Source of the DNA: Parabacteroides chongii
GTDB lineage: Bacteria > Bacteroidota > Bacteroidia > Bacteroidales > Tannerellaceae
Direction: 5' to 3'
NCBI RefSeq assembly: GCF_029581355.1
Contig: NZ_CP120849.1
Coordinates: forward strand, 32,501-96,500
Length of the DNA stretch: 64,000 bases
Shown: piece by piece, positions 42,625 to 44,682 of the stretch
Layout of the letters: every line of letters begins with the position of its first letter
Numbering within the stretch: the first letter of the stretch is position 1
Translations under genes and position numbers: made by a program
Notes under the pieces: model-generated
Seen by the model: the letters and a program-made list of their open reading frames with translations, nothing else
The model's database searches: none
Told to the model about the DNA's origin: nothing

Positions 42625-44682
42625 TTATCTAGGAATGTACACTGACTGTCCCCTTCCTTCCCGCCATACTATATATATACCAGACGGAAGCGAATAAGTA
42701 TAGTCACCCGGTTGAAGCTGTTGATAAGAATAGACTTTCCCATTATAATCAACAATCAAGACTGAGGATTTTGTGGAGACTGAAATATACAATAGTTGAG
42801 AAGCCACACGAATCTGCCAATCGTCTTTGAATACAGGTCTATTATCAACACTCTCTTCATTCTTTTGAATACCTTCGACTGTTATTGTAATATCCCGACT
42901 TACCGATCGTATACGATACGAACGCCTACCGGCTGCATTCACAAAATGCAATTCTACAACATCGCCATTTACCCGAACGATAGGCTCAGATTGATCACAG
43001 GAAATAGTAGCACCTTCCAACTCCGGAATGGATACAGTATAATAAACGGGGTCAGGCTCAGGGTCAGGCTCAGGGTCAGGCTCAGGGTCAGGGACCGGGT
43101 TTTTAACTATTCCTGAAATACGAATCCTTATATCTTTATCAATATCAGAAACAACATAATAATAAGTATTCCCTTCTTTCGTAAACGACACATCTCCTGC
43201 CGATGCCTTTACTCGGGGAGTAGATTGATTATAATCTGACAATAATCTCAATGAAAAACAGAAATCATCCCCTTCCTGTACCTCCGTATCTCCCGAATTG
43301 GAAAGAACAGCTCCTCTAATTGATTGAGGTAAACGAACTGTATAATGGACTAATTTAGGTGTCCACTGAGCAACAAACGTAGTTGTTTGGGTTATAGGTT
43401 TTTCTATATTTTCGGCATTACTCCAACCTGTAAAGTCAAAGAATTCTTTCATCGGATCTTCGGGCTTGACTGCGAGTTCATCTTTTAAAATGATTTGCTG
43501 ATTACAAATTTCTTCCGGATCTTCAGACAATAAAAAAGATACTGTAAAGAAAGCAAGAGAAAGCTCTTCTCCTTTTTTAAATGTAACATTTCCCATCTCT
43601 TCTTCTCCATATTTAATTGTATATGTAGACTCTTGCAGATAGTTTATCTCATTTATCGGCATTGCCGTTCCACCTTCAGCCATTAATGAAACAGGCTCTT
43701 CTTCCTCCCACTCTTCACCATCCAATGTCAGGGTAGAAACAACAGGGTAGAAAGGCTGATTACCGGTTACATTTCCTGTCAAAGTTCCATCCACAAAAAT
43801 AGAACCTTGTTGATTATCCAATTGAAATTCCCCCTGAATAGTAAGACTACATCCTTCTTTAATCTCCAATGATTGATCCGGTTGAAGAGTCATATTGGAA
43901 GACAAAGAGACTTTTCCATATACATTACCCTTATTTCCTTCAAAAAGAATTCCTTTTGTTAATGTTGAGGTTACTTTATCGATGGAATTTACGGATAATA
44001 GTGCGTTATTGTTCAATTCAAAAGAATGAGATTCTTCAGCTTCATCCTCTTTTCCTTCGATAGAACCTGCTAGCATTAATGAACCTGAACTTTCTCCATC
44101 CGCAATTAAAGTCGCACCATTTGCAATAAGTATTTTAGCATCATCATCAGTTGAAGAACTCCATTGATTTATTCCCTCCCACGAAAGATGAACTTGGGAT
44201 GCTGATTGTATTTCCAATGGTAAATCAGAGTTTATATTTACATTAATTAAATGGATAGAAACTGCATCGGTTGTGTTTACTACAATTTTATATGGAAATA
44301 CTAGATTAACTTCTCCTTTTATAGTGATTTGTCCTTTCAGAACGACAAGTACATCATCTTCAAATTTATAATTATCTTCATCTCCTTCTATACTAAACAT
44401 AAGTACCAAATGCAATGTACTATCCTTTTGGATACTATAATCCTGTAAAGTATTCCCATCCTCCAACTGTTTTCCTGCAAAAATCAATCGTTGTTGATCT
44501 GGCGGAATTCCTTCTTTATCCTGTATTTTAGCCTTAATATCTTCAATACGATCTGTAGGCTCTACTTCCAAAGTGATATGCTTTCCTGTCAATGTCTTTA
44601 CAAAGATTTGCATAGCATACGAGTCTTCCGCATACGACAATCCAACAAATAATAGTAATAAAAAAAAGAGTTTGTTTTTCAT
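42625..44682 (-). CDS. Secreted multidomain protein with eukaryotic-type ubiquitin domain
   Basis: 685 residues. A signal peptide (residues 1-23, ending DSYA) is followed at once by a ubiquitin domain (24-97): MQIFVKTLTGK, LEVEP, KAKIQDKEGIPPDQQRLIF, AGKQLEDG and STLHLVL are unchanged from human ubiquitin. By hand count 62 of the first 71 residues are identical. All seven ubiquitin lysines are kept; the C-terminal RLRGG is replaced by MFSIE. Next come beta-rich repeats, InlB-like strands (FDFTGWSNAENI), a PDPE linker repeated four times and a C-terminal sorting-like domain (SGIYIVWREG). BfUbb of Bacteroides fragilis is the known precedent for bacterial ubiquitin. Structured leader B precedes the gene. 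Confidence 0.93.
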   Translation of the reverse strand: MKNKLFFLLLLFVGLSYAEDSYAMQIFVKTLTGKHITLEVEPTDRIEDIKAKIQDKEGIPPDQQRLIFAGKQLEDGNTLQDYSIQKDSTLHLVLMFSIEGDEDNYKFEDDVLVVLKGQITIKGEVNLVFPYKIVVNTTDAVSIHLINVNINSDLPLEIQSASQVHLSWEGINQWSSSTDDDAKILIANGATLIADGESSGSLMLAGSIEGKEDEAEESHSFELNNNALLSVNSIDKVTSTLTKGILFEGNKGNVYGKVSLSSNMTLQPDQSLEIKEGCSLTIQGEFQLDNQQGSIFVDGTLTGNVTGNQPFYPVVSTLTLDGEEWEEEEPVSLMAEGGTAMPINEINYLQESTYTIKYGEEEMGNVTFKKGEELSLAFFTVSFLLSEDPEEICNQQIILKDELAVKPEDPMKEFFDFTGWSNAENIEKPITQTTTFVAQWTPKLVHYTVRLPQSIRGAVLSNSGDTEVQEGDDFCFSLRLLSDYNQSTPRVKASAGDVSFTKEGNTYYYVVSDIDKDIRIRISGIVKNPVPDPEPDPEPDPEPDPVYYTVSIPELEGATISCDQSEPIVRVNGDVVELHFVNAAGRRSYRIRSVSRDITITVEGIQKNEESVDNRPVFKDDWQIRVASQLLYISVSTKSSVLIVDYNGKVYSYQQLQPGDYTYSLPSGIYIVWREGRGQSVYIPR
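43047..43098 (-). repeat. PDPE-coding tandem repeat
   Basis: A 12-bp unit (GGGTCAGGCTCA on the plus strand) is repeated about four times and encodes Pro-Asp-Pro-Glu between two beta domains. It is an in-frame, slippage-prone linker. Confidence 0.85.

Follow-up and report, generated by a model that had tools for sequence, protein, structure and literature searches.

The window analysed here is a 64,000-nucleotide stretch of the Parabacteroides chongii contig NZ_CP120849.1. Between the genes for phosphoglucomutase (40760-42562) and cytidine deaminase (45338-45814) it holds a gene whose 685-residue product is headed by ubiquitin (Table 1). The ubiquitin domain matched PF00240 with an E-value of 1e-28 (99.3 bits, cut-off 25.4) and is a member of the ubiquitin family; Pfam detected a single unit in the gene and no head-to-tail units. 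It was identical to human ubiquitin at 62 of 71 residues, and the nine differences from human were T12H, S20T, T22R, N25D, V26I, R54N, S57Q, N60S, and E64D. The initial annotation had described a near-eukaryotic ubiquitin directly after a signal peptide, with all seven lysines and without the diglycine tail, in an exported protein. This description held: the lysines are all present, MFSIE stands where RLRGG is expected, and the signal peptide, from which export is predicted, is evident by eye. Its cleavage is ambiguous and could fall between SYA and EDSYA (after A18, before Glu19) or between SYA and MQIF (after A23, before Met24).

Table 1. Features of the ubiquitin-headed gene, in window coordinates.
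Feature	Position	Strand	Basis
Whole ubiquitin-headed gene	42625..44682	(-)	685 aa ORF, Parabacteroides chongii NZ_CP120849.1
Predicted signal peptide, residues 1-23	44614..44682	(-)	By eye; same placement in relatives
Ubiquitin domain, residues 24-94, trichomonad-type, seven lysines	44401..44613	(-)	PF00240
MFSIE replacing RLRGG, no conjugation tail	44386..44400	(-)	Sequence
Listeria-Bacteroides (InlB-like) repeat, below cut-off	43372..43548	(-)	PF09479, 21.4 bits vs 27
Two related repeats with PDPEP linker between them, common to Parabacteroides goldsteinii proteins	42850..43359	(-)
C-terminal domain, like a type IX secretion sorting tail, below cut-off	42628..42819	(-)	TIGR04183

Downstream of the ubiquitin, the two related repeats showed 42% identity over 91 residues to the P. 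goldsteinii protein P0129. TIGR04183, the model for T9SS type A cargo, matched the C-terminal domain at 14.8 bits (cut-off 23) and gave C-terminal matches of 15.6–20.0 bits in four related proteins, all under the cut-off. In the structure prediction of the full protein (mean pLDDT 35.7), the C-terminal domain was modelled best (pLDDT 64–80) and the remainder poorly. The GC content was 0.357 for the ubiquitin part, 0.369 for the gene, and 0.410 for the window. A promoter of the Bacteroidales type gave only a loose match 338 bases upstream of the gene. An 81-nt inverted repeat at 45063-45230, also upstream (79% complementary, 6-nt loop, folding energy −97 kcal/mol, z −15), reads as a MITE-like element or a long hairpin. 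Within the gene, 12-nt tandem PDPEP repeats were seen at 43037-43096 and just downstream.

The Pfam families of the 10 flanking genes were housekeeping or cell-wall families, and no ubiquitin-pathway family (E1, E2, deubiquitinase) was found among these genes at E ≤ 1e-5. The Bil and CBASS phage-defence conjugation systems resemble the present case in being ubiquitin-like systems in bacteria. They are cytosolic and diverged and come with E1, E2, or protease partners, whereas the 10 scanned neighbours of the window gene included no such partner.

A ubiquitin-domain scan of 84,980 bacterial and archaeal genomes yielded 420 stretches encoding a relative. We examined 89 loci, namely the best 80 of these 420 genome stretches and nine loci from viral contigs; the high identity of the genome loci is therefore partly selected for. 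A predicted signal peptide ended directly before Met1 of the ubiquitin in 74 of the 89 loci, as called by hydrophobicity and small residues at −1 and −3 and not by a trained predictor. With a hydrophobic stretch and small −3/−1 residues directly ahead of Met1, the mature protein would begin at Met1. The other 15 loci comprise twelve with no start in range (L021, L028, L037, L040, L044, L049, L056, L072, L075, L081, L083, and L085) together with L005, L046, and L084. Among these, L028, L040, and L044 have a longer N-terminus and, by eye, a signal peptide, L005 carries 141 residues ahead of the ubiquitin domain, and no signal peptide was found in L021, L037, L049, L072, L075, L081, L083, and L085. 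L091 appears to duplicate L058, and L100 to duplicate L002.

Relatives were present in isolates with long contigs (Dyella, Conexibacter, Cohnella, Loktanella, Frisingicoccus), and many belong to soil or water organisms by name. In similarity-blind draws with the centre genome excluded, relatives were rare. The phylum of L019 (titled Bacteroidota) gave 5 among 394 genomes, that of Dyella gave 1 among 397 (26.6 bits, signal peptide absent by eye), and that of Frisingicoccus gave 4 among 397 (one at 104.7 bits, three at 20–28 bits). All seven matches above 80 bits in these draws lay behind a signal peptide by eye, and four other matches (20–28 bits) were weak. The GG tail was kept in 6 of the 76 bacterial domains compared below and lacking in 70, and it was kept in none of the 17 domains of the window's type. 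A scan of the genome contigs with the whole 685-residue protein returned no relative. For a comparison of gene order across Parabacteroides, no near relative was found through phosphoglucomutase in 296 genomes of the order of G336, probably Flavobacteriales, and 36 others (best 55%, one partial match 58%) or through a release-factor gene in 56 other genomes (best 60%).

When 717 neighbouring ORFs of at least 90 residues from 90 loci were clustered, the largest groups spanned 7, 5, and 4 loci. Inspection of 18 neighbour clusters by eye revealed no E1, E2, or deubiquitinase. As no gene of this size recurred in more than 7 of 90 neighbourhoods, shared neighbours were dropped as a clue to function. 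The most recurrent neighbour, a homologous gene found at seven loci (L016, L019, L028, L039, L040, L044, L064), lies just upstream on the opposite strand in L019.

A eukaryotic domain inside a bacterial contig raises the question of an assembly chimera or eukaryotic contamination, the more so as five of the 89 loci (L075, L081, L083, L084, L085) looked eukaryotic or giant-viral by eye. For the window protein, judged at the level of public contigs, we reject a chimera. Its relative P0006 (named Parabacteroides sp.) is 95% identical over 100% of the query and represents a 90% identity cluster of 31 sequences on 40 contigs, the longest of 244,539 bases. The presence of relatives in isolates with long contigs argues the same way, and so does the codon composition, which tracks each genome (GC3 of the ubiquitin codons against flanking GC, r = 0.915, n = 72 loci); the probability of such an artefact is virtually nil. 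Compared with P0006, the window copy has six additional linker residues (PDPEP) and lacks 24 residues of the last (second) repeat, as though a deletion between similar repeats had removed them.

The nine differences from human ubiquitin are informative as a set. Eight of them (H12, T20, R22, D25, N54, Q57, S60, D64) form a signature that behaves as all-or-none. We compared 76 bacterial domains, namely the window and 75 of the 89 loci; nine loci without a usable signal peptide, the eukaryote-like L084, and the near duplicates L010, L012, L088, and L089 were left out. Seventeen of the 76, the window included, hold 7–8 of the eight residues, and the other 59 hold 0–2. We define the trichomonad-type bacterial ubiquitin clade by at least 7 of the 8 residues; the window domain has all eight and so belongs to it. 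The 16 other members come from Alphaproteobacteria, Clostridia, and Bacilli. Only 0–2 signature residues, and never all together, were found in a further 273 distinct units taken from the protein hits, for the most part polyubiquitins of eukaryotes; a later protein search again listed polyubiquitins among its best 120 matches.

When the signature positions and three neighbours were compared with all PDB chains, the sole match was 5xy3_m (E = 0.02). With more neighbours in the query, it was the best single-unit chain at 28.4 bits, the next reaching 14.6. Entry 5XY3 is listed as Trichomonas vaginalis in PMC8215155. Over residues 8-67 of this T. vaginalis ubiquitin, the one trichomonad sequence compared, the window domain is identical at 59 of 60 residues and L001 at 60 of 60, against 51 of 60 for window and human. 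The T. vaginalis chain (132 residues, 'Ubiquitin, putative') is cellular and belongs to a ribosome entry, whereas the window domain is predicted to be exported and lacks GG. We presume that chain m is a conjugatable ribosomal-protein fusion.

A second signature (N20, S22, D24, A25, I26, E32, E52, K54) had 4gsw_A as its sole PDB match (E = 0.063), given as Entamoeba histolytica ubiquitin in PMC8588831. It is held at 8/8 positions by L069, 7/8 by L029, and 6/8 by L073, which are titled Clostridia or Oscillospiraceae from goat and buffalo (ruminant) gut; none of the other 73 bacterial domains exceeds 3. This is a parallel case and not the window's type.

In a tree of 102 rows, which T. vaginalis enters through its identity to L001, the trichomonad-type clade was supported at 100/96 and the Entamoeba-type clade at 99/96. 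With 60 columns available, good support was reached by only 14 of 99 inner branches, and the bootstrap had not fully converged. The phylogeny that had been proposed as a check thus places the window domain within the trichomonad-type clade. The two signatures, the PDB matches, and the clade supports together make protist-type donors well supported for the trichomonad- and Entamoeba-type gut groups, and a protist origin of the ubiquitin is very probable from these sequence comparisons. The annotated host-to-bacterium transfer stood with regard to a eukaryotic origin and failed with regard to a host donor, the domain grouping with the trichomonad type and away from human; a vertebrate donor is rejected on the basis of the eight-residue signature, the PDB match, and the tree. 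Within the clade, the window domain forms a subgroup with L002, L003, L005, and L022 (97/80), all sharing I26. This grouping suggests that the domain moved from one bacterial phylum to another; separate uptakes from protists with I26 are the alternative. By their titles, the closest bacterial copies (L001, L005, L003, L004) belong to other phyla; the domain may thus have come directly from a different gut bacterium.

A third supported bacterial group (99/94) comprised L014, L015, L018, L027, L030, L042, L053, and L062, largely from rumen by their titles and with H54 in six of eight; its donor was possibly another rumen eukaryote.

The ubiquitin domain was more conserved than the rest of the protein in all 95 pairs whose downstream parts were less than 85% identical (median 91.5% vs 34.3%), with pN of 0.07 at pS of 0.86. 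The full set of 102 pairs, in which the pairs are interdependent and a few loci have no signal peptide, contained one exception, L007–L010 (ubiquitin 97.2%, rest 98.3%). The window and L001 differ at one residue and at a share of 0.92 of synonymous sites. Choosing similar loci inflates identities and cannot saturate synonymous sites, and these values indicate strong purifying selection on the bacterial ubiquitin domain.

We then counted changes by face, with patch membership and buried sites assumed from general knowledge of ubiquitin. In the 17 trichomonad-type domains, R42 was changed most (10/17), followed by V70 and Q49 (8 each), Q40 (6), and V26, Q31, P37, D39, and I44 (5 each), and Q2, F4, L8, H12, T20, G47, N54, Q57, D58, S60, and T66 never changed. 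Counted as cells, changes fell at 34/128 on the Ile44 side, 25/96 on the Ile36 side, 2/96 on the F4 face, and 3/128 on the S57/D58 face. In shuffling over exposed sites, the low count for F4 plus D58 gave P = 0.003 (0.009 by distinct residues, 0.024 without signature sites), and the high count on the Ile44/Ile36 sides was reached in 0 of 100,000 shuffles. The other 59 domains, compared with human, showed the opposite pattern (Ile44 26/472, Ile36 19/354, F4 11/354, S57/D58 100/472 cells), so the held face is a property of the trichomonad clade, except for the F4 patch, which is held in both sets. The Ile44 region, which the initial annotation had listed as kept, is intact in the window copy and drifts across the clade; as a conserved contact of this clade the Ile44 face is unsupported. 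The drifting Ile44/Ile36 side presumably adjoins the fused partner and may therefore have adapted to it.

These counts bear on the view of the initial annotation that the protein mimics the ubiquitin of the vertebrate host and acts on host receptors or antibodies. The 62 of 71 human-identical residues and the predicted secretion fit this view, and BfUbb, the ubiquitin of Bacteroides fragilis, is reported to bind human E1 covalently. Against it, all eight trichomonad residues are among the nine positions that depart from human, and the clade retains them; GG is missing in 17/17. R42, which we take to be an E1 contact, is changed in 10/17. Mimicry of the host is improbable on this evidence.

Anchors were scanned in 62 proteins hand-picked from 90; proteins without a signal peptide, near duplicates, and some others were omitted. 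At E-value limits of 0.01 for Pfam and 0.05 for NCBIfam, where sets overlap and some matches stay under the cut-off, we recognised an autotransporter beta-domain in 14, midcut-by-XrtH in 6, IPTL-CTERM in 4 (Pfam) or 5 (NCBIfam), S-layer homology in 3, LPXTG in 2, and a type IX tail in 2. In the remainder of the 62, no anchor was recognised in the Pfam and NCBIfam tables. Among the 17 trichomonad-type proteins, barrels over curated cut-offs occurred in L001 (NCBIfam only), L007, and L038, and S-layer domains over curated cut-offs in L002 and L011. L006 and L009 had no Pfam barrel match and showed downstream BLAST homology to L001 and L007; L003 had a barrel match below the cut-off. The Bacillota proteins L004, L005, L022, L033, L045, and L050 end, as judged by eye, in a sortase-like motif or, at the minimum, in a membrane segment with a basic tail, the best score being that of L005 (15.8 bits vs 15.9). 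A strict LPxT scan of the tails returned only L048, which looks spurious. L013 is a free form of the trichomonad type, and L008 is cut off. Across the clade, one and the same ubiquitin is thus joined to several downstream parts that are unrelated to each other. Surface display is likely, as predicted from the autotransporter barrels, S-layer domains, and exosortase motifs of relatives and the weak type IX-like tail of the window protein.

The variety of downstream parts also fits a role without any ligand, in which ubiquitin would cap exported proteins by virtue of its stability and its resistance to proteases. The ubiquitin fold is notably stable, the downstream parts vary freely, and in 40 of 90 proteins the remainder is too short or has no downstream relative in the set. 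Stability would not fix the exposed residues K6, Q57, D58, S60, and K63, which are unchanged in 17/17 at a median pS of 0.87, and we find a mere cap quite improbable.

Among the closest known systems is BfUbb, described in PMC3352274 and PMC5705921 as a free 76-residue secreted ubiquitin of B. fragilis with 63% identity to human and antibacterial action. Like the window protein, BfUbb is a eukaryotic-like ubiquitin behind a signal peptide and lacks the terminal GG. Its mature form starts at Met1; in the window protein, cleavage could fall before Met24 or before Glu19. BfUbb is free where the window ubiquitin heads 685 residues and carries the trichomonad signature. The contrast with BfUbb drawn in the initial annotation was right about this anatomy, but the window protein is one case among many, signal-peptide ubiquitins being a wide class. 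The plant-parasitic nematodes offer another likeness: PMC5705921 describes their secreted ubiquitin effectors, whose 12-residue extension undergoes cleavage inside the plant. These have, like the window protein, a signal peptide, ubiquitin, and a C-terminal extension, and they are eukaryotic.

BfUbb makes an interbacterial weapon the main rival reading, in which an antibacterial or receptor-binding ubiquitin would merely be exposed by the tail. As a signal-peptide ubiquitin without terminal GG, it inhibits other B. fragilis according to the same sources, and free forms exist in the class (L013 of the trichomonad type; the small L020, L055, L077, L082, L094, and L096). On the other side, many members are multidomain or anchored, and no gene of at least 90 residues recurs in more than 7 of 90 neighbourhoods, a count that smaller immunity genes would escape. 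A weapon would also leave unexplained that the gut copies have retained residues characteristic of two distinct gut protists. We regard it as unlikely.

Our preferred reading, with a probability of about 0.4, is that the predicted exported protein, with its likely exposed, GG-less trichomonad-type ubiquitin, is a surface decoy that engages ubiquitin-reading proteins of gut protists; the protist as target is proposed tentatively. Sequence comparison shows the ubiquitin domain, its protist signature, the missing GG, and that the domain is under strong purifying selection in bacteria. Gut bacteria would acquire ubiquitin from gut protists, of the trichomonad type here and the Entamoeba type elsewhere, and would hand it on to one another. 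The mature protein would then display a non-conjugatable ubiquitin on the cell surface, and its F4 and S57/D58 faces would contact an endocytic or phagosomal ubiquitin receptor of a bacteria-eating gut protist. Uptake or phagosome handling would be disturbed, and the grazing protist would mishandle or spare the bacterium. The F4 patch is needed for endocytosis in yeast, and Rabex-5 reads the D58 face.

The weak point of the decoy is topology. Once a bacterium is engulfed, its surface domains look into the lumen of the phagosome, and this counts against the decoy because known ubiquitin readers are cytosolic. The Ile44 side, which most ubiquitin receptors use, drifts in the trichomonad clade, which also speaks against the decoy. 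Among the other 59 domains the S57/D58 face is variable, which restricts the D58 argument to a single clade, whose sequences are not independent and whose faces are assigned from general knowledge of ubiquitin. Many relatives are named for soil or water organisms, a further point against the decoy. Surface display is weakened by the window tail, which lies below the cut-off, and by anchors being recognised in part of the 62 proteins only. By analogy, the tested secreted ubiquitin BfUbb, which inhibits bacteria (PMC5705921), also argues against the decoy.

A broader form of the decoy reading, which we consider doubtful, is that bacteria of many phyla share a common surface device of signal peptide, intact ubiquitin, and the anchor of their own envelope, and that gut members wear the ubiquitin of their grazers as camouflage or decoy, passed across phyla. 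In the matches listed for the literature on bacterial ubiquitin, with most subscription papers outside the coverage, signal-peptide ubiquitins were not described as a wide class, and neither ubiquitin on autotransporters nor protist-type ubiquitin in gut bacteria was described; the novelty of the class is provisional. B. fragilis is called one of a few bacteria with a eukaryotic-like ubiquitin in PMC5705921; the present scan gave 420 prokaryote stretches encoding a relative. In 74 of 89 loci a protein predicted to be exported opens with ubiquitin, which is strongly constrained although 70 of 76 domains lack GG. The gut copies share their residues with particular gut protists; this points to protist donors and opens protist–bacterium contact in the gut to testing. 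For immunology, such proteins might cross-react with anti-ubiquitin antibodies.

Two observations concern small members of the class. L020 and L082 encode a complete ubiquitin with RLRGG last behind a predicted signal peptide and are apparently intact exported ubiquitins. L094 and L096, in G336 (probably a flavobacterium), are tandem small signal-peptide ubiquitins with mature lengths of 77 and 76 residues, of which 58 and 52 are identical to human; one of them ends in PPCN.
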